A stretch of DNA of 64,000 nucleotides, from NCBI GenBank assembly GCA_003725745.1, contig RHDP01000001.1:3046001-3110000 (forward strand). Direction: 5' to 3'. The notes beneath the pieces were generated by a model. It worked only from the letters and a program-made list of their open reading frames with translations, was not told where the DNA came from and made no database searches. Positions 50,996-64,000 of the stretch are shown here, one piece after another. A program made the position numbers and the translations under genes. The stretch's first letter is position 1. Each line of letters opens with the position of its first letter. The DNA is from Streptomyces sp. I6. GTDB lineage: Bacteria; Actinomycetota; Actinomycetes; Streptomycetales; Streptomycetaceae.

Positions 50996-52006
50996 TCAGA
51001 CGGCGGGCCGTGGCGGGCTCGGCAGTGCCTCGGCACCGTCCCTGGTCACCCGCGTCGCACCGAAGTAGTCCGGAGTGTCGATCTTGTCGAACCGGATCAC
51101 CGCCCCGGTGTACGGCGCGTTGATCATATAGCCCCCGCCCACGTACAGCCCGACGTGCCTGATGGCCCGTGAATCGGCCAGGTCGTCGGAGAAGAACACC
51201 AGGTCCCCGGGGAGCAGTTCGTCCCTCGACGGGTGCGGTCCCGCGTTGTACTGGTCGTTGGCCACGCGCGGCAGCTCGATCCCGACGGTGCGGTACGCCG
51301 CCTGCGTCAGGCCCGAGCAGTCGAACCGGCCGCCCTGCTCGGGTGTCCCGTTCCCGCCCCAGAGGTACTTCGTGCCGAGCTTCTGCTGGGCGAAGTAGAT
51401 CGCCCCGGCCGCCTGCCGCGACGGCTCCACCCGCCCGACCGGCCGCGCGAAGCTCTTCTCCAGCGTCCGGATGACCTTCACGTAGTTCTGCGTCTCGCGG
51501 TACGGCGGCACCCCGCCGTACTTGATCACGGCGTACGCGCCCGCGTTGTACGCGGCGAGCATGTTGTCCGTCGGGTCACCGGGGGCCTTCTTCACATACC
51601 CCGCGAGCTTGCAGTTGTACGAGGCCGCCGAGGGAATCGCGTCGGCGGGGTCCCACACGTCGCGGTCCCCGTCACCGTCCCCGTCGACACCGTGCGCCGC
51701 CCAGGTGCCGGGGATGAACTGGGCGATGCCCTGCGCGGCGGCATGGCTCTGGGCCCGCGGGTTCCAGCCGGACTCCTGGTACAGCTGCGCGGCGAGCAGC
51801 GCCGGGTTGATGGCCGGGCACAGGTTGCCCCACTTCTGCACCAGCGGCTGGTACAGGGCGGGGACGGCCCCCTTGGCCAGCGCCACGGCCCCCTTCGCCC
51901 CGCCCCCGAGCCCCGCGGCGGCGGAGAAGGTCCCGACGACGAGCAGGGCGACGAAGCCCAGACAGAGCCCGACGGCCCCGCCCGCGACGAGCCACGCCTT
52001 ACGCAC
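50996..52006 (-). CDS. Lytic transglycosylase-NlpC/P60 bifunctional cell-wall hydrolase
   Basis: A 336-residue (GTG start) exported protein. The signal/anchor is about 3-30. A soluble lytic transglycosylase-like domain follows (INPALLAAQLYQESGWNPRA with the catalytic Glu in QESG; SHAAAQGIAQFIPGTWAAHG; DNMLAAYNAGAYAV). The C-terminal NlpC/P60 domain has Cys in FDCSGLTQAAYRT and His in RHVGLYVGGGYM. It would cut glycan and stem peptide. A calcium-binding-like DGDGDGDRD motif lies inside the first domain. GGAGG is 10 bp from GTG 52004-52006 and 4 bp from TTG 52010-52012, so the longer TTG start is also possible. Confidence 0.92.
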   Translation of the reverse strand: MRKAWLVAGGAVGLCLGFVALLVVGTFSAAAGLGGGAKGAVALAKGAVPALYQPLVQKWGNLCPAINPALLAAQLYQESGWNPRAQSHAAAQGIAQFIPGTWAAHGVDGDGDGDRDVWDPADAIPSAASYNCKLAGYVKKAPGDPTDNMLAAYNAGAYAVIKYGGVPPYRETQNYVKVIRTLEKSFARPVGRVEPSRQAAGAIYFAQQKLGTKYLWGGNGTPEQGGRFDCSGLTQAAYRTVGIELPRVANDQYNAGPHPSRDELLPGDLVFFSDDLADSRAIRHVGLYVGGGYMINAPYTGAVIRFDKIDTPDYFGATRVTRDGAEALPSPPRPAV

Positions 52007-52444
52007 CGTCAATCATCCTCCACCGCACGGCAGTCCACCGCTCGTCAGTGTAGGTGCGGAGCACCCGGTTCCGGGGGCGCACAAGGGTCCCGGGGAAGCA
52101 CGGCGGCGGGCATCGGACGAGGACGGGGCGCCGGGGCGGGATGGCGAGACGACAAAGGCGTGACGGGGGCGCGCGGCGCCCCGGCCGCCCGGAGGGCCGG
52201 TGGCCGGGCACCGGGCGGGCGGGAGCCGGCTGGGAGCCGGTCGGTGCCGGGCCGTGGCCCCCCGGCATCAGGCACAGGGACCGTGACCGCGTACAGCGAC
52301 CGCGACCGCGATCGCACGCGGGGGCCGTGACCGTGGCCGCGTACAGGAACCGGGCGCGATGGCCGCTCCGAGGGCTGTTCCAGCCTGTTACCCGCAGGTA
52401 GCGTGTGGCCGGTACACCTTGTCCGTGGCGAGAGGCGGCCCCTC
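52007..52444. other. Divergent gap between the transglycosylase and thioesterase genes
   Basis: The last 70 bp contain the -10-like TAGCGT (52399-52404) of the thioesterase gene. From 52270 to 52350 the segment GACCGTGACCGCGTACAG is repeated in degenerate form. No coding sequence or clear terminator is seen. Confidence 0.5.
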
Positions 52445-53236
52445 ATGACGGAACACCCGGCGTTCTACGAGCGGATCTCCGAGGCCCGTTTCTCGCCGAC
52501 CGAGCACACCCGCGGCCCCTGGGACGCCGGATCGCAGCACGCCGGACCACCCGCGGCGCTGCTCGGTCGCGCCCTGGAGGAGCGGCCGGGCGCACGCGCC
52601 GACATGCGGCTCGCACGCGTGACGTACGAGATCGTCCGCCCCGTGCCGATCCGCCCGCTCGAGGTGACGACGACCGTCCTGCGGAGCGGGCGCGGCGTGG
52701 AGATCGTCGAGGCGGCGCTCACACCCGAGGGAGGGGCACCGGTGATGTTCGCCCGCGCCCTGCGCGTCCGCACGCTCGGCGAGCCGGGACCGGCCGTCTC
52801 CGAGGGCCCGCGGGTGCCGTCGCCCGGCGAGACCCCGGAGACGCCCTTCCTCGCCGTGCTGTGGGACGTCGGGTACCACACGTCCATGGACACCCGGTTC
52901 ACCGAGGGAACCTTCCGGGAACAGGGCCCCGGAACCTGCTGGATGCGGATGAGGATGCCGCTCGTCGCGGGGGAGGAGATCCGCCCGCTGGACCGCGTCC
53001 TGGTCGCCGCCGACTCCGGCAACGGCATCAGCAACGTCCTGGACTTCGAGCGCCATGTGTTCGTCAACGCCGACCTGACGGTCCATCTGCACCGGCACCC
53101 GGCGGGCGAGTGGGTCTGCGTCGAGGCCCGTACGAGCGTCGACCCGGCCGGCATAGGCCTGGCGGACGCCCGGCTGCACGACGAGAAGGGCCCGATAGGC
53201 CGCAGCGCCCAGAGCCTCTTCGTCGCCCCTCGCTGA
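52445..53236 (+). CDS. Acyl-CoA thioesterase family protein (TesB-like double hotdog)
   Basis: A 263-residue protein with two hotdog folds and the characteristic QHAGPPAALLGRALEERPGA. The C-terminal half has AADSGNGISNVLDFERHVFV and LTVHLHRHPAGEWVCVEA, the typical end of the TesB/4HBT group. Members hydrolyse acyl-CoA; chain preference is unknown. ATG 52445. The small membrane gene 53391 follows after a hairpin. Confidence 0.85.
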   Translation: MTEHPAFYERISEARFSPTEHTRGPWDAGSQHAGPPAALLGRALEERPGARADMRLARVTYEIVRPVPIRPLEVTTTVLRSGRGVEIVEAALTPEGGAPVMFARALRVRTLGEPGPAVSEGPRVPSPGETPETPFLAVLWDVGYHTSMDTRFTEGTFREQGPGTCWMRMRMPLVAGEEIRPLDRVLVAADSGNGISNVLDFERHVFVNADLTVHLHRHPAGEWVCVEARTSVDPAGIGLADARLHDEKGPIGRSAQSLFVAPR

Positions 53237-53390: not shown

Positions 53391-53534
53391 GTGCAGAACC
53401 TTCAGAACGCGGGGACCAGCGCCAGGACGACGGGGCGCAACAGCGACTCCGGGGGAACCATCGCCGCCGTGACCGTCATCGCCCTCATCGCCGTGGCCAT
53501 CGGGCTGCTCGGCTACATGGTCGTCAACCGCTGA
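53391..53534 (+). CDS. Small single-pass membrane protein, 47 residues
   Basis: GTG 53391 with a GGAG site 7 bases upstream. The N-terminus is MQNLQNAGTSARTTGRNSDS, then one helix (TIAAVTVIALIAVAIGLLGY) and VVNR. Hydrophilic half outside or inside cannot be told. Framed by two strong hairpins, so it seems to be its own transcription unit. Function unknown. Confidence 0.65.
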   Translation: MQNLQNAGTSARTTGRNSDSGGTIAAVTVIALIAVAIGLLGYMVVNR

Positions 53535-53896: not shown

Positions 53897-54205
53897 ATGT
53901 ACCTGGCGGCTGAGAAGGGCGACATCACCACCATCATCGGCGGAATCGCCCCGAACTGGGGGCCCTTCGGCAGCCTCGGGAACGAGGCGCGCGTGATGAT
54001 CGAGGTCGTGATGGCCGTCGCCATCCTGCTCTGCCTGGGCATCGCGATCTGGGGGGCCGCGAAGCAGCGCATCGGCGCCACGGCCCTCCGCGACACGTTC
54101 AGCGCGGAACAGGGCAAGGGCCTGATCGTCGCCGGCCTGACCGGCGTCTTCATCATCGGGTCACTGGGGACCCTGTTCACCATCGTGTACGGGATGGCCG
54201 TCTGA
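53897..54205 (+). CDS. Small two-helix membrane protein of the T4SS-like cluster (VirB2-like; cmdF position)
   Basis: A 102-residue protein with two hydrophobic helices (about 31-52 and 73-97) separated by a short basic loop (KQRIGATALRDTFS). This size and topology is that of VirB2/TrbC pilin-like subunits. It is the first of six same-strand genes corresponding, by gene content, to S. coelicolor SCO4131-SCO4126, described as cmdF-cmdA (membrane proteins needed for normal differentiation and antibiotic production). Start ATG 53897 after GGGGCGGTG. Pilin function is inference only. Confidence 0.65.
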   Translation: MYLAAEKGDITTIIGGIAPNWGPFGSLGNEARVMIEVVMAVAILLCLGIAIWGAAKQRIGATALRDTFSAEQGKGLIVAGLTGVFIIGSLGTLFTIVYGMAV

Positions 54206-54390
54206 CACCCCCGTACCACTTCCCGTCCGCCTCCCGTCCGCCCCCGACACCACCACCCGTCCGTCGCGCCCACCGGCAGAGGTTGCGTCCCCCTGATGTC
54301 GAGTCACCACACTCCGCCCGCACCGCGTACAGCAGGGCTACCGTCGTACTACGGCACGGCAACGCACACGGCTGAGGGGGCGCCAGCGGC

Positions 54391-55215
54391 ATGAGCTACG
54401 ACGACGAGACCGACGGCTTCGGCAGCGGCGGCGCGGGCCAGACCCGCACCCGCCTCCCCGAGGGGGGCACCGGCGACGTATACGGCGGTGCCCGCAGGCC
54501 CGCCCGCACCTCCCGCTCCCTGGTCATGGTCGTGGGCGTGGTCGTCCTCCTCATCTCCGCCATCGCCTTCGCCAACCGCGGTGACGGCACCGTCTCCCCC
54601 GGAACCACGGACACGGCCAAGGGCACCACCCCCACCGCGGCAACCGGCATCCGCCCGGTCGCGGGCAAGCACGCGGGCATCCCCGCGGGGTACGCGAAGG
54701 ACGAACAGGGGGCGCAGAGCGCGGCGGCGAACTACGCGGTCGCCCTCGGCTCCGTCGGCATGTTCCAGCGGGACAGCCGCCACCGGATCGTGGACAGCGT
54801 CTACACACCAGAGGTCGCGGCGGGGCTGAAGGGCCCCCAGGACTCCGCCTACTCCACCGAGTTCCTCAAGAGACTCGGACTGGACCCCGAGGGGAACGCC
54901 CCGGCCGGGAGCACATTCGTCTCCCGGACGATCCCCGTGGGCACCAAGGTGGAGGCGTTCTCGGACGACACGGCGAGGATCTCCGTGTGGTACACGGGGC
55001 TCATCGGCATGTCGGGCGAAGGCTCGACCGACCCGGTGCGCACCACGTGGAAGACCTGGACGTTCGACCTGAAGTGGACCGACAACGACTGGAAGGTCGT
55101 CCGGGACTCCGAGAAGGACGGGCCCGCCCCGGTGCCCGGCGACGTCGCCGCCTCGACCTCGGACGAGATCAGCCAGGCCGTACAGGAGTTCGGAGGGTTC
55201 ACATATGCCCGGTAG
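54391..55215 (+). CDS. Single-pass membrane protein, VirB8/TcpC-like (cmdE position)
   Basis: A 274-residue protein. Residues 1-42 are cytoplasmic and Gly-rich, one helix is about 43-61, and the extracytoplasmic domain is about 65-274. The domain (YAVALGSVGMFQRDSRHRIV, then STFVSRTIPVGTKVEAFSDD, WTFDLKWTDNDWKVVRDSEK) has the alternating pattern of NTF2-like VirB8/TcpC domains. The stop overlaps the next start by 11 bp, so the genes are coupled. As a T4SS component it would bridge membrane complexes. Confidence 0.7.
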   Translation: MSYDDETDGFGSGGAGQTRTRLPEGGTGDVYGGARRPARTSRSLVMVVGVVVLLISAIAFANRGDGTVSPGTTDTAKGTTPTAATGIRPVAGKHAGIPAGYAKDEQGAQSAAANYAVALGSVGMFQRDSRHRIVDSVYTPEVAAGLKGPQDSAYSTEFLKRLGLDPEGNAPAGSTFVSRTIPVGTKVEAFSDDTARISVWYTGLIGMSGEGSTDPVRTTWKTWTFDLKWTDNDWKVVRDSEKDGPAPVPGDVAASTSDEISQAVQEFGGFTYAR

Positions 55216-56571
55216 CTCTTGGTTCCGTGCCCGTGTCGGCTCGGCCTCGGCCCTGCTCGCAGGTGTGCAGGTCGCTGCCCTCCTGTTCGCCGGACGGGCT
55301 GCCGCGGCACCCACCCCGACCCCGACCCCGTCGCCCAGCGGGGACGTCGAAGCGTGCCGCTACCTCAGCGGCCATGCCAAGCGCTACTGCGAGGAGGGCG
55401 AACGGGCAGGCGACGCGGGGACTTCGGTCACCCCCGACCCCGCCGGCGCCCTCGACCCCCTCTCCTCTCTCGCCCGCGGCTGCGCCGACGCCGCCGCCTG
55501 GGTGGTCGACACCCTCTCCAAGGCCGTGAAGTCCACCGCCGAAGTGGACTTCACCAACACCGCCTTCCTCGGCCAGTACGCCGTCGTCTTCGCCGCCGCC
55601 ACCTTCCTCACCCTCGTGCTCTGGCTGCTCGCCGTAGCCAAGCGCGCCATCCGCGGCGTCCCCCTCACCACCGCGATCTCCGAGGCCGTCGGCTTCCTCT
55701 GGCTCACCGTCCTCGCCTGCGCCTTCACCCCGCTGATCCTCTACACGCTCGTCTCCGCGACCGACTCGATCACCGACGTGATCGCCCAGGGCACGGGTGG
55801 CCAGACCGACGTGTTCTTCGGCGGCTTCAAGGAGGCACTGCAGAAGGGCGACGACATCGGCGGCGGGCCGATCATGCTCATCGTCGTGTCGCTGGTGACG
55901 ATCGTCGCCGCCGGCATCCTGTATCTGGAGCTGTTCCTCCGCGCCGTCCTGCTGTACGTGGGCGCCCTGCTCGGCGTCGTCGTGTACTCGGGGCTCGTGG
56001 ACAAGAACATGTGGGGCCACGTCCGCCGCTGGGCCGGAATCATGATCGCGGTGATCCTCGTCAAGCCGGTCATCGTCATCGTGCTCGGCCTCGCCGGGGC
56101 GCTGTCCGCCGACGACGGCCCGGACGCGTTCTCCGCCGTCGTCACGGGACTCGCCATCATCCTGCTCGCGATCTTCGCCTCCGCGATGATCTACCGTTTC
56201 GTTCCCGGGTTCGGCGACGAGATCGCCGCGTCCCGCAACAACCGGCTCCAGAACGGCGCGGAGAGCAAGGCCGCCGCCGTCATCAGTTCCCCCGCCGCCC
56301 TCGTCTCGCAGGGCATCAAGACCCACAGCAGCCGCACCCACCAGCAGGGCGGGGCGGCTCCGGGGGCGGCAGCGCCCCGAGCCCCGTCGCCGGCGGAGTC
56401 GCCGCGCACAGCACACGCGGGGCCGGATCCGGCGGGGGCGGCGGAACCGTCCCCTCCGCCGCACCTCCGCCCCGTAGTGGAGGCCCGGGCGGCACCCCGC
56501 ACAGCCACCGCAGGAACTCCGGCAGCACCACCGGCACAAGCACAGGAAGCACAGGAGGTGGAGGGCGTTGA
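55205..56571 (+). CDS. Polytopic membrane protein, VirB6/TrbL-like (cmdD position), frameshifted as sequenced
   Basis: About 455 residues with one base restored. A signal-like N-terminus (to about residue 35, AAAAPTPTPTPSPSG) is followed by about six helices (from 120 to 330), the typical VirB6/TrbL layout with long loops. The tail is low-complexity Gly/Ser-rich (SGGGSAPSPVAGG, then RRNSGSTTGTSTGSTGGGGR). The run GGGG at 56351-56354 should be GGGGG; the observed frame continues for hundreds of nonsense codons, while the repaired frame stops at TGA 56569-56571, overlapping the next TTG start. Confidence 0.75.
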
Positions 56572-58121
56572 CGACGCAGTCCCCGGCCATCGCGCCCCGC
56601 CGCACCTACCTGATCGGCCGGGCCCGGCCGAACGCGATCATCGGCAAGAACCGCGAGACCGGCGAGATCGCCCTGATCATCGCCGGGGCCTTCCTCGGCA
56701 TGATGAGCGGGCTGCTGGTACCCGTCCTGTCCCTGCGCATCGTGCTGCTCACGGGCTTCCCGCTGCTCGCACTGGCCGCCGTGTACGTGCCGTACAAGCA
56801 GCGCACCTTCTACCGCTGGTACGAGATCAACCGCAGCTACAAGCGCACCCTGCGCCGGGGCACCGTCTACCGCTCCGGCGCCATGGAGGCGGGCACCCGC
56901 ATCGACGGCCGCGAGGTCGAGATCGGCCCTCCGCCCGGAATCGGCCGCATCAGCTGGCTCGCCGCCCCCTTCGGCCCGGACGAGATCGCCGTACTGCTGC
57001 ACGCCGACCGGCGCACCGTCACCGCCGCCATCGAGATCGAGGGCCCCGGCGTCGGACTGCGCGACAGCGAGGACCAGGAAGCCCTGGTGGACCGTTTCGG
57101 CACCCTGCTGAAGCACGTCGCCAACGGCGACGGCTTCGTGACCCGACTCCAGATGCTGGCCCGTACGCTGCCCGCCGACCCCGACGCGCACGCCAAGGAC
57201 GTCGCCCAGCGCGGCGACCCGGGCGCCCCCGGCTGGCTCCAGCAGTCCTACGACCAGCTCCAGTCGATGGTCTCCACGTCCAGCGAGCAGCACCGCGCCT
57301 ACCTGGTCGCCTGCATGCACTACACGCGGGAACTCGCCGCCGAGGCCCACGCCATGGCCCGCGCCGCCCGCCAGGCCACCGGCGCCAGGCGGCTCGACAA
57401 GGACGCCGGCCTCGCCGTCGTCATGGCGCGCGAACTCACCGACATCTGCGCCCGCCTCGCCGAGGCCGACATCCGCGTCCGCCAGCCCCTCGGCCAGGCC
57501 CGGCTCGCCTCCCTCGTGCACTCCATGTACGACCCGGACCACCCCATCGACCACATCCAGGCCATGACCAAGCGCAACGCATGGCCCGCCGAACTCGACG
57601 CCGTGGAGCCCGGCTACCTCCAGGCCAAGACCCGCGAGTCCGCCACACGTGCCCCCTGGTGCCACGCCACGGCCTGGGTGAAGGAGTGGCCGCTGACCCC
57701 CGTCGGCGTCAACTTCCTCGCCCCGCTGCTCGTCCACACCCCGGACGTGATCCGCACCGTCGCGGTCTGCATGGACCTGGAGCCCACCGAGGTCGCCATC
57801 GAGCGCATGCTCACGGAGAAGACCAACGACGAGGCCGAGGCCAGCCGGGCCGCGAAGATGAACCGCACCGTCGATCCCCGCGACATCGCCGCGCACGGCC
57901 GGCTCGACCAGCGGGGTGAAGATCTCGCCAGCGGCGCGGCAGGCGTCAACCTCGTCGGGTACATCACTGTGTCGTCGCGTACGCCCGAGGCCCTGGCCAG
58001 GGACAAGCGCACGATCAGGGCCTCGGCGGGCAAGTCGTACCTGAAGCTGGAGTGGTGCGACCGCGAGCACCACCGGGCCTTTGTCAACACGCTGCCGTTC
58101 GCCACCGGCATCCGCCGATAG
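56568..58121 (+). CDS. SCO6880-family protein, VirB4 N-terminal-like (cmdC position)
   Basis: A 517-residue protein starting at TTG 56568 behind AGGAGGTGG. Two helices at about 33-75 are followed by a large soluble domain that resembles the N-terminal (non-ATPase) half of VirB4/TrbE proteins: YLVACMHYTRELAAEAHAMA, then HSMYDPDHPIDHIQAMTKRN. No Walker motif is present. The ATPase half is the next gene, so VirB4 appears to be split into two proteins here. TTGA overlap with the preceding gene indicates tight coupling. Confidence 0.78.
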   Translation: MTTQSPAIAPRRTYLIGRARPNAIIGKNRETGEIALIIAGAFLGMMSGLLVPVLSLRIVLLTGFPLLALAAVYVPYKQRTFYRWYEINRSYKRTLRRGTVYRSGAMEAGTRIDGREVEIGPPPGIGRISWLAAPFGPDEIAVLLHADRRTVTAAIEIEGPGVGLRDSEDQEALVDRFGTLLKHVANGDGFVTRLQMLARTLPADPDAHAKDVAQRGDPGAPGWLQQSYDQLQSMVSTSSEQHRAYLVACMHYTRELAAEAHAMARAARQATGARRLDKDAGLAVVMARELTDICARLAEADIRVRQPLGQARLASLVHSMYDPDHPIDHIQAMTKRNAWPAELDAVEPGYLQAKTRESATRAPWCHATAWVKEWPLTPVGVNFLAPLLVHTPDVIRTVAVCMDLEPTEVAIERMLTEKTNDEAEASRAAKMNRTVDPRDIAAHGRLDQRGEDLASGAAGVNLVGYITVSSRTPEALARDKRTIRASAGKSYLKLEWCDREHHRAFVNTLPFATGIRR

Positions 58122-58164
58122 CGGCTGACACGCACCGACACGCGCCGATAGGGGCCCTCATCCG

Positions 58165-59571
58165 ATGCGAGATCCGCTGTCCGTCCTCACCGAGTCCTTC
58201 ACGTCCTTCCTCTTCGGTAAGGTCGAGACGACCCGCTCCCCCGTGCGCACCTCCACGGGCCAGGCGCAGGCCGTCTACCTGCCGACCGCGGCGCCGGGCC
58301 TGGGCGACTCAGGCGTGATCATCGGCCGCGAGGTCTACAGCGGCAAGGGCTACGTCTACGACCCGTTCCAGCTGTACGGGCAGCAGCTCCCCGCCCCCCA
58401 CTGGCTGGTCCTCGGTGAGTCCGGCAACGGCAAGTCGGCGCTGGAGAAGACCTACGTGCTGCGGCAGCTCCGCTTCCGCGACCGCCAGGTCGTCGTCCTG
58501 GACGCGCAGGGCGAGGACGGCGTAGGCGAATGGAACCTCATCGCCCAGGAGCTGGGGATAACGCCCATCCGGCTCGACCCGAGGGCAGCCCTGGACGACG
58601 GTATCCGCCTCAACCCGCTCGACCCGTCGATCACCACCACCGGGCAGCTCGCGCTGCTGCGCACCATCATCGAGGTCGCCATGGGGCACGGCCTCGACGA
58701 GCGTGCGGGCTTCGCGCTCAAGGTGGCGCACGCGTACGTCAACGAGACCATCGGCGACCGGCAGCCGGTCCTCACCGACATCGTCGACCAACTCCGCCAC
58801 CCGGAGCCCGAGTCCGCCGCGGCGATGAACGTCGACATCGACGACGTGCGGGCCTGGGGTCTGGACGTCGCCCTGGTCCTCGACCGGCTCGTCGACGGCG
58901 ACCTGCGCGGCATGTTCGACGGCCCGACCACCGTCGGCATCGACCTGGACGCCCCCCTCATCGTCTTCGACCTCTCGCACATCGACCGCAACTCCATCGC
59001 CATGCCGATCCTCATGGCAATCGTCGGCGTCTGGCTGGAGCACACCTGGATCCGCCCGGACCGGAAGAAGCGCATCTTCCTGGTGGAAGAGGCCTGGCAC
59101 ATCATCAACAGCCCCTTTGTCGCGCAGCTCTTCCAGCGGCTGCTGAAGTTCGGCCGACGGCTCGGCCTGTCCTTCGTCGCCGTCGTCCACCACCTGAGCG
59201 ATGTGGTCGACGGCGCCGCCGCCCGGGAGGCCGCCGCCATCCTGAAGATGGCGTCGACGCGCACCATCTACGCCCAGAAGGCGGACGAGGCACGGGCGAC
59301 GGGCAGAGTGCTCGGACTGCCCCGGTGGGCTGTGGAGATCATCCCCACCCTGACCCCCGGTATCGCGGTCTGGGACGTCAACGGCAACGTCCAGGTCGTC
59401 AAGCACCTGGTGACGGAAGCCGAACGCCCCCTGGTCTACACGGACCGGGCGATGACCGAGTCCGCTCTCCCCGAGGACGTCCGGGCCGCGGAACAGGAGG
59501 CGGAGGAACGCGCGGCCTTCATCGAACGGCAGCAGCGGCGGCTGGATTCCTCCGAGTCGACGGTGGCCTGA
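58165..59571 (+). CDS. VirB4 C-terminal-like ATPase (cmdB position)
   Basis: A 468-residue AAA-like/RecA-like ATPase. Walker A is LVLGESGNGKSALEK (GESGNGKS at 84-91), Walker B KRIFLVEEAWHIINS (303-316), followed by RLLKFGRRLGLSFVAVVHHL, the VirB4-type sensor region. It supplies the energy for the six-gene machine and matches the single ATP/GTP-binding protein known in the cmd cluster. ATG 58165 starts 43 bp after the previous stop. No membrane helices. Confidence 0.88.
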   Translation: MRDPLSVLTESFTSFLFGKVETTRSPVRTSTGQAQAVYLPTAAPGLGDSGVIIGREVYSGKGYVYDPFQLYGQQLPAPHWLVLGESGNGKSALEKTYVLRQLRFRDRQVVVLDAQGEDGVGEWNLIAQELGITPIRLDPRAALDDGIRLNPLDPSITTTGQLALLRTIIEVAMGHGLDERAGFALKVAHAYVNETIGDRQPVLTDIVDQLRHPEPESAAAMNVDIDDVRAWGLDVALVLDRLVDGDLRGMFDGPTTVGIDLDAPLIVFDLSHIDRNSIAMPILMAIVGVWLEHTWIRPDRKKRIFLVEEAWHIINSPFVAQLFQRLLKFGRRLGLSFVAVVHHLSDVVDGAAAREAAAILKMASTRTIYAQKADEARATGRVLGLPRWAVEIIPTLTPGIAVWDVNGNVQVVKHLVTEAERPLVYTDRAMTESALPEDVRAAEQEAEERAAFIERQQRRLDSSESTVA

Positions 59572-59573
59572 CG

Positions 59574-61229
59574 GTGACGCGCGACCCGGGACGCGGCCCC
59601 GGCCGGGAACGGCCGCGCCAGGAGCGGGGCGTGCCCGACGGCCTGCTCGTGGGTGTCCTCGGCTTGCTCGTCGGGCTGACCCTGCTGGTCTGGACGGCGA
59701 CGGGGCTCGCCGGCCTGTTCGCGCACGGCTCCTGGCCGGAGGGCGTGACGTTCACCAACACCCCGCTCGCCATACGCAGCCTCGTGGCCGAACCCCAGGA
59801 CCTGCCCGCGGCCTGGCCCGCCACACCTGCCGACCGGCTGTCCGGCTACGGACTGTTCTGGGGGCTGCTCATCGGCCTGCTGATGACGCTCGTGGTGCTG
59901 ACGGTCTTCGTCCTGGGCACCCTGTCCCGGTGGCGCGCGGTGCGGTCGCGCCGCGCGACGGCAGGGGAGACAGCCCGCAAGACGGCCGGGGAAACGGACC
60001 GGGAGACGGGCGGGGAAACGGGCGGCGACGTCCCGACCCAGGCGGTCACGGCGACGGTCCCGGACCGGCGGGTCTCCCGCCCGGGCACGGCCGCCGCCGA
60101 GGAGACCCCCGTCCCCGCAGGATCCGCGGCCAGCGCCGGTACGACGTTCCCGTTCGAAGCGGCACCCCCATGGAACCCGCGCCGGCCTCGATGCCGGTCG
60201 GCCAGGGCGCGCCGGCACCTGCCGAGCACTCCGGACCCACGGACCCTCACTCGCCGGAGCGGACCGGCGCCCCGGCCCCCGCCGTCCGCGGGTCCTCTAC
60301 GCAGCCCCGTCCGCCCGGCGCACCTCCGCCGTCCAGGCGATCCGCGAAGCCGCCGGCCCCGCGCTCGTCGTCACATCCGATCCGGCCGTCTGGTCGGAGA
60401 CCAAGGACGCCAGGGCCAAACTCGGCCCGGTCCTCGTCTACGATCCGGGCCATCTCTGCGACACACCCGCACGGCTCCACTGGTCCCCGACGGCCGGCTG
60501 CGCGGATCCGGCCACCGCTGCCAGCCGGGCGGCGGCCCTCTTCGCTCCCGTACGTCCCCACTCCCGCCTCGACGAAGCCGTCGCGGACACCGCCGAAACG
60601 CTGCTGCGCTGCTGGCTGCACGCCGCCGCCGTGGACGGGCGCCCGTTCAAGCAGGTCCACCGCTGGGCCCAGGGAAGTGGCGCTCATGAGCCCGTACGGA
60701 TCCTCCGCACCCACCCGAAGGCCGCCTCTGGTCTCGCGGGGCTGCTCGAGTCGGCCCTCACCTCGCACAGTGAACGCCGGGAGATCGCCATGGAGCTGAC
60801 GGCCCGTACGCTGGCAGCCCTCTCCTCCGTCCACATCCGTCAGGTCTGCACCCCGAACCGATCGGATTCGCTCACGCTGGAATCATTTGCGGACGAGGGG
60901 GCACGCTCTATGTGGTGGGTGAATCGATCGAGGGTCCGCGCTCCCGGCCGGGGGCCATGCCGCTCCTGACCGCACTCACCTCAAGCGTGGTCGAGCACGG
61001 CCGCCGCATGGCCGCACGGTCATCCGACGGTCGGCTCGACCCACCATTCACCCTCGTCCTGGACGACGTCGCGGCCGTCGCCCCGCTGCCGCTCCTCCCG
61101 GAGCTGCTGGCCACGGGCCCGGCTCTCGGCATGCCGACGCTCGCGCTGCTGCGTTCCCGCGAACAGGGCCGTGCCCGCTGGCCTCAGCCGTTGACGCCCG
61201 ACGCCGCCCCCGGGCCGGCCACTCCTTGA
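59574..61229 (+). CDS. VirD4/T4CP-like protein with degenerate Walker A (cmdA position), three frameshifts as sequenced
   Basis: About 552 residues with three bases restored (CCCCC 60165-60169, GGG 60290-60292, GGGGG 60897-60901). Two helices at about 22-48 and 95-118 and an acidic/basic linker (TAGETARKTAGETDRETGGE) precede a RecA-like C-domain. At the Walker A position the protein reads RVLYAAPSARRTSAVQAIRE with no GKS/T. Later PFTLVLDDVAAVAPLPLLPE resembles Walker B. It looks like a VirD4/TraG-type coupling protein that has lost nucleotide binding. GTG 59574, 2 bp after the ATPase stop. Confidence 0.72.
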
Positions 61230-62104: not shown

Positions 62105-62223
62105 GTTCGGCAGTGTCCTACTCTCCCACAGGGTCCCCCCTGCAGTACCATCGGCGCTGAAAGGCTTAGCTTCCGGGTTCGAAATGTAACCGGGCGTTTC
62201 CCTAACGCTATGACCACCGAAAC
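62105..62223 (-). rRNA. rrf: 5S ribosomal RNA
   Basis: The minus strand begins GTTTCGGTGGTCATAGCGTT and ends near GGACACTGCCGAAC, 119 nt, which is the Streptomyces 5S sequence with its terminal helix (GTTTCGG paired with CCGAAC). It lies about 87 bp after 23S, last gene of the operon. Confidence 0.95.
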
Positions 62224-62310
62224 TCTATGAAAATATCGAACCAGCCCACCACCACAGTAGCAGCATGTTCGTTACTTCAGAACTAACACAGTGGACGCGA
62301 GCAACTGAGG

Positions 62311-64000
<1,690 letters not shown>

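Follow-up and report, generated by a model that had tools for sequence, protein, structure and literature searches.

The DNA considered here, called the window below, is a stretch of 64,000 nucleotides from Streptomyces sp. I6 (assembly GCA_003725745.1, contig RHDP01000001.1, positions 3,046,001 to 3,110,000 of the forward strand). It contains six closely spaced genes on the plus strand, at about 53897 to 61229, which a preliminary description had picked out as a tight cluster resembling a type IV secretion system (T4SS) and had equated with the cmdABCDEF cluster. Both points stand; the genes, their order and their chromosomal location are those of the cluster described in S. coelicolor (SCO4126 to SCO4131, with cmdA being SCO4126), where the six genes are co-transcribed (PMC2782261). 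The order on the chromosome runs from cmdF to cmdA, and the Walker lysine of CmdB is residue 90, the position mutated in that paper. The genes of the locus, with two neighbors, are the following:

50996..52012, minus strand: tgdA, secreted lytic transglycosylase (SLT) with an NlpC/P60 domain, VirB1-like; divergent from cmdF
53897..54205, plus strand: cmdF, 102 amino acids, including two hydrophobic segments; resembles VirB2 in position and topology only
54391..55215, plus strand: cmdE, VirB8-like, with one transmembrane helix and an NTF2-like outer domain
55205..56571, plus strand: cmdD, VirB6/TrbL-like membrane protein; the tail is frame-broken here within 56335-56470
56568..58121, plus strand: cmdC, SCO6880 family with two N-terminal transmembrane segments; taken as the N-terminal half of VirB4 (TrsD-like)
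58165..59571, plus strand: cmdB, C-terminal ATPase of VirB4, Walker A motif GESGNGKS at 58414-58437, with the Lys as residue 90
59574..61229, plus strand: cmdA, degenerate coupling protein of the VirD4 type; the frame breaks in this assembly near 60.2 kb and near 60.9 kb
62105..64000, minus strand: end of a ribosomal RNA (rRNA) operon, 5S at 62105-62221 and 23S from 62307; a conserved downstream landmark outside the machine

The core of a monoderm T4SS is fixed in the Streptomycetaceae. A strong match to CmdB (E <= 3e-146) is present in 247 of 249 genomes of the family, in all 17 of its genera, and the tally becomes 248 if one includes genome G699, which has a weak, unrelated CmdB match but carries cmdC at a contig end. 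The remaining genome is 71% complete and gave no matches to cmdB, cmdC or cmdF. In a sample of the genus, CmdB was found in 101 of 101 genomes with 89-100% identity. A phylum sample of 396 genomes produced matches in 65, including 12 from the genus, and those outside the family have at most 43% identity. Likewise, the 199 records of plasmid relatives are all below 60% identity.

The cmd proteins also form a single lineage. The cmd clade of a CmdB tree contains 24 of 24 rows (support 100/99) and is separate from the plasmid relatives and those in integrative and conjugative elements (ICEs); a tree based on CmdB and CmdC together gives the same clade with support of 99.5/100. The family-wide presence of cmd in one clade and its conserved surroundings argue against an integrated element, and a mobile element was rejected for the single clade and family-wide presence. 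A phage or viral origin was also rejected, as a scan of viral_contigs with CmdB, which reaches close relatives only, gave three pattern matches and no confirmed relative. The lack of a linked relaxase, as previously proposed, agrees with a search for two relaxase families (PF08751 and PF03432; other families were not searched) in 20 genomes: eight have one somewhere, 12 have neither and none lies within 90 kb of cmd. The closest one, in the genome of the window itself, is separated from cmd by about 91 kb.

For the ATPase half, the similarity is well beyond what chance would give. CmdB matches Pfam AAA_10 (8.6e-13) and the solved VirB4 structure 4ag5 (1.5e-6), and GESGNGKS and EE are present in CmdB of all 120 loci, which supports its assignment as the C-terminal half of VirB4. 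The Lys-90 of a published CmdB mutant is the Walker A lysine of the window's protein. This mutant fails to complement, although the authors warn that instability of the mutant protein was not ruled out, and the text of the paper contains both 'arginines' and 'K90A' (PMC2782261). CmdC belongs to the NCBIfam family SCO6880_fam (2.7e-54); PDB sequence profiles gave only chance-like matches for it, and from the gene order we take CmdC as the N-terminal half of VirB4.

CmdE has no Pfam support as a VirB8 protein and only chance-like matches to PDB sequence profiles; its predicted fold, an NTF2-like membrane protein, does support VirB8, as had been proposed. The VirB6-like assignment of CmdD fits its position and its six hydrophobic segments, and its match to TrbL_4 (2.7e-4) is below the 27-bit cut-off. 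For CmdF, described earlier as VirB2-like, the position, the size and the two hydrophobic segments (residues 27-45 and 76-94) agree, and a pilin family match is lacking; nothing was found in Pfam or NCBIfam, and the PDB sequence profiles were chance-like. CmdF homologs occupy the same place in the T4SS plasmids L098-L100, and the gene is single-copy in the window's genome.

A VirB1-like transglycosylase, TgdA, belongs to the Cmd system and is its seventh part. The window's tgdA product matches Pfam NLPC_P60 (1.5e-24) and SLT (3e-15), so the wall hydrolase of the VirB1 type is present, and it resembles the transglycosylases of the T4SS plasmids L103 (51%) and L099 (50%). A wall hydrolase gene is found beside the cluster in all six T4SS plasmid stretches viewed. 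In a whole-genome search of 45 genomes, tgdA is upstream of the cluster and inverted in 44, at 4.3 to 27.9 kb from cmdB, and in several genomes, some of them from other genera, it directly adjoins cmdF; the short flanks alone show it in 51 of 121 loci, one of them with tgdA downstream. The exception is G407 (locus L096), where tgdA is about 4 Mb away, cmdA is cut and no rRNA is nearby, which we read as a rearrangement or a misassembly at the rRNA operon. In G479, where an insertion splits the cluster, cmdF still adjoins tgdA. From its position and product, the window's gene would correspond to SCO4132, the S. coelicolor neighbor named tgdA; the part of the report available to us states that tgdA mutants raise actinorhodin to the level of cmdBCDEF mutants (PMC6585502). 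The actinorhodin-raising transposon insertions given there are in cmdBCDEF and tgdA, with similar effects, and not in cmdA.

The sixth protein, CmdA, displays a different pattern. Its predicted fold resembles the coupling protein TrwB; PDB sequence profiles of CmdA gave only chance-like matches. However, none of 100 intact Streptomyces CmdA proteins (from 99 genomes) has GK[ST] at the P-loop, the column of the lysine is Lys only once, and the second acidic position of Walker B is Glu in none of the 100. At most 47 residues follow Walker B in these proteins versus 132 in a plasmid relative by the same measure, and the VirD4 proteins of the plasmid relatives retain the P-loop, the DE and the C-terminus in five of five cases. 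A pattern match to Walker A in CmdA of L179 is at residue 304, away from the P-loop. The 120 loci represent 118 genomes (L065 and L114 are the same record, as are L072 and L160), and the counts leave out 11 loci at contig ends (L123, L135 and L138 among them) and do not treat five partial and four frame-broken genes as intact. As the P-loop, the catalytic Glu and the C-terminal end are all gone, a working VirD4 was rejected and CmdA does not qualify as a functional coupling ATPase; the VirD4-like assignment stands for the fold and fails for these three features.

In other genera the state of cmdA varies. Of 31 loci from 16 other genera, one (L187) has retained the P-loop, 17 carry a degenerate version, five (genera g237 and g240) are reduced to the N-terminal membrane portion, and eight (seven of g249 and one of g250) lack cmdA at the locus. 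When whole genomes were searched with a complete CmdA from a different genus, a query that recovered its own genome and the pieces in the window as controls, none of the seven g249 genomes gave a match and the g250 genome gave one distant match (30%) away from the locus. In one genome (G503, locus L233) the sequence is given as N from about 1.6 kb downstream of cmdB onward. On the CmdB and CmdC tree the P-loop was lost at least three times if loss is irreversible, and two is the safe minimum; the basal forks of this tree are weakly supported (72/79 and 66/45). The CmdB tree likewise places L187 inside the cmd clade. Since g249 is nested among genera still carrying cmdA, in a clade with good support (99.6/97), its loss of the gene is separate from that in g250.

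Changed VirD4 motifs were also seen outside the family. In four loci from other actinobacterial families (L200-L202 and L210), the glycine before the P-loop lysine of VirD4 is replaced (GPTQSxKT or GPTQTxKT) and the C-terminus is full length; in L201 and L202, Walker B reads DD as well. These are possibly other systems with altered coupling proteins.

In the window itself, the reading frame of cmdA is interrupted: the gene begins at 59574 in a first frame, continues in a second from about 60.2 kb and returns to the first from about 60.9 kb. With the intact relatives L104 and L077 as queries, a frame change in the cmdD tail was placed somewhere in 56335-56470. The assembly (7.05 Mb) has two contigs and is only 87.4% complete by markers, and therefore the three frame changes are probably insertion or deletion errors, although they could be real mutations. 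Gap counts between the window and L104, which are high in cmdD, cmdB and cmdA and some of which must compensate one another, were not used to judge assembly errors. By a three-piece test, cmdA is in a single frame in 37 of 40 loci of the first set and 63 of 80 of the second, with 11 of the 80 cut by contig ends.

The pattern of constraint also separates the parts. Across the 40-locus set, pairwise identity averages 0.91 for CmdB, 0.90 for CmdC, 0.89 for CmdF (39 loci), 0.71 for CmdD, 0.60 for CmdA and 0.55 for CmdE. The median ratios of nonsynonymous to synonymous change (dN/dS; 16 pairs, no duplicate genomes) are 0 for CmdF, 0.05 for CmdB, 0.08 for CmdC, 0.30 for CmdD, 0.33 for CmdA and 0.38 for CmdE. 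By these measures CmdB, CmdC and CmdF are nearly invariant and the most strongly constrained. Some constraint persists on CmdA as well in Streptomyces, suggesting that it retains a residual, perhaps scaffolding, role there.

These patterns can be set beside the published genetics (PMC2782261). Mutants with cmd phenotypes have been described in three species, and expression of cmdB rises at aerial growth. Every single deletion except that of cmdA leads to light-grey colonies, while the cmdA deletion sporulates normally. Anucleate spores reach 8% and 6% in cmd mutants versus 0.1%, and chromosomes are unevenly distributed. The authors proposed a channel that translocates the chromosome or a plasmid. 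That several genera do without the coupling protein accounts for the silent cmdA deletion.

Taken together, the cluster has been retained vertically and family-wide; the VirB1-, VirB4-, VirB6- and VirB8-like proteins and CmdF are kept, and the VirD4-type protein decays in parallel or is lost. We favor the explanation, with a probability of roughly 0.6, that the core of a conjugative T4SS was captured once by an ancestor of the Streptomycetaceae and is now a house-keeping part of aerial growth. As to what Cmd moves or builds, we infer the following. CmdB and CmdC, as a split VirB4, would use ATP to build or work an envelope-spanning structure, presumably made of CmdF on a platform of CmdD and CmdE, with TgdA opening the wall for it. 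This would take place in aerial hyphae prior to septation, and the effects of the mutations on segregation and antibiotics would be secondary to an envelope defect. Since no coupling protein would be needed, Cmd would not be a classical DNA exporter. A more specific version, which we offer only tentatively, is that Cmd and TgdA are a coupling-protein-free conjugation machine whose product, a conduit or filament lined by CmdF, crosses the wall of the aerial hypha and connects or conditions compartments before sporulation; it would be the bacterial counterpart, for development, of the archaeal Ced system, with its coupling ATPase being lost several times.

Several observations weigh against the favored explanation. 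Neither a transported substrate nor a filament or channel has been observed. CmdF has no significant pilin match, and T4SS_pilin scores just E 0.45 and 0.73 in two homologs or positional equivalents on plasmids. Foldseek places NTF2-like folds from outside T4SSs above VirB8 for CmdE, and CmdE evolves fast, as its ratio above indicates. CmdA, with its moderate constraint in Streptomyces, is not a dead gene and may still act. The pigment phenotype, in the part of the 2009 genetics available to us, is not common to cmdC and cmdF mutants (PMC2782261). Furthermore, the operon is not strictly indivisible: the complete genome G506 (L218) lacks cmdD and cmdE at a locus that has cmdF, cmdC, cmdB and a short cmdA, and cmdF has moved away in G479 and G504, in the latter to about 133 kb from cmdB. 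G506 also has two extra CmdF-like genes about 80 kb from the locus.

Other explanations can be given for the same machine. The anucleate spores and uneven chromosomes, the place of CmdB within the VirB4/HerA class and the original proposal of a translocation channel would all fit a helper of FtsK that pumps chromosomal DNA across the sporulation septa, with CmdB as the DNA motor. We consider this rather unlikely, as the DNA receptor on which such machines normally rely is dead or missing, the segregation defects may be secondary because the mutants also branch and collapse before septation, and cmd was not seen beyond the Streptomycetaceae in the phylum sample. An importer or exchanger of DNA between hyphae or compartments is suggested by the archaeal Ced system, which, according to the part of its description available to us, is chromosomal, domesticated and without a relaxase and has a set of parts matching the one retained here (CedB as VirB4, CedA as VirB6 and CedA1 as a VirB2 pilin; PMC9905601). 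CmdB itself matches CedB weakly (4.4e-4, far below the cut-off). This reading, which has VirB4, VirB6 and VirB2-like parts working without relaxase or coupling protein, seems unlikely to us: the cmd phenotypes are developmental, DNA uptake is not reported in the cmd literature examined, and deletion of the cluster left transfer of a linear SLP2-derived plasmid unchanged, a result the authors gave as data not shown (PMC2782261).

Secretion of protein without a coupling protein does exist, with Ptl and the Brucella VirB system as the examples named in the accessible part of one report (PMC12102498), and so Cmd might send a developmental protein into the wall with an unlinked adaptor in place of VirD4. 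This is improbable, however, as no gene that might encode a substrate is a constant neighbor of the cluster and the gene content between tgdA and cmdF varies among loci. The decay of cmdA and the frame breaks in the window would suit a decaying integrated element without a present role, but this explanation is contradicted by the low dN/dS of F, B and C (0 to 0.08), the presence of cmd in nearly all genomes of the family and the mutant phenotypes in three species, and we regard it as very unlikely indeed.

T4SSs without a coupling protein or a relaxase are already known, and Cmd shares features with several systems. The T4SSs of actinobacterial plasmids and ICEs (L098-L102) have the same order (a small protein, VirB8-like, VirB6-like, SCO6880, VirB4 ATPase and VirD4) and also a wall hydrolase gene nearby; they differ from cmd in having kept the complete VirD4 described above. 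A relaxase is annotated, in the stretch or by plasmid typing, for four of the five, and L098 is typed as non-mobilizable. Archaeal Ced and Ted resemble cmd in being chromosomal, domesticated cores of the VirB4/VirB6/VirB2 type with no relaxase; in the portion of the source at hand, Ced imports DNA and the structure of its pilin is solved (PMC9905601), whereas Cmd has VirB8 and VirB1 parts, the remnant of a coupling protein and a developmental phenotype. The T4SS of Patescibacteria, as far as the available part of that study goes, is likewise chromosomal and of the monoderm MPF-FATA type, with the relaxase mostly absent and the coupling gene mostly away from virB4 and not essential in one strain (PMC12102498); it serves epibiotic growth, whereas Cmd serves development and displays a graded decay of a linked coupling gene. 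The Bartonella Trw system, in the part of the report that we could consult, is derived from conjugation, no longer has a coupling protein and is not known to secrete any substrate, and it differs from cmd in its duplicated, variable surface pilins and its role in adhesion to erythrocytes (PMC2610397). CmdF is single in the window's genome and nearly invariant, and its invariance argues against a role as a variable surface adhesin of the kind that the Trw pilins represent.

The system is not as poorly described as the preliminary description held, as the genetics was published in 2009 and touched on again in 2019; these are the relevant cmd papers among the literature matches listed. Subscription literature was mostly outside the search, so an earlier account of the coupling-protein decay is possible. 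The text of the 2009 paper mentions neither VirD4, relaxase, coupling protein nor Walker motif (PMC2782261), and a 2025 review of T4SSs covers TraB-mediated transfer in Streptomyces in a text without cmdA, SCO4127 or 'aerial hyphae'. What is added here is the coupling-protein fold, decay and loss of CmdA, the VirB8 fold of CmdE, the retention throughout the family and a VirB1-like role for tgdA. Archaea and Patescibacteria are known to have domesticated conjugation machines, and Cmd would be one that is fixed in a large bacterial family amenable to genetics, for which mutant phenotypes have been published. The absence of the coupling protein from several genera amounts to a natural experiment on which parts matter, and the vague 'membrane proteins for differentiation' becomes a structural question open to testing in laboratory strains.

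The flanks had been described as free of signs of an element. No tRNA was detected anywhere in the 64 kb, and the 5S and 23S genes are downstream on the minus strand; the upstream flank does hold one gene of a T4SS type, the transglycosylase tgdA. Upstream of cmdF, an ungapped consensus of 112 loci is conserved only at the ribosome-binding and start region, with no common regulator site identified. Between tgdA and cmdF the window has a thioesterase (52445-53236) and a 47-amino-acid peptide with one hydrophobic stretch (53391-53534). The thioesterase recurs in this position in L077 but rarely elsewhere, and so looks like a lineage-specific insertion. On the other side, a 5S gene follows at a distance of no more than 9 kb in 37 of 40 loci.

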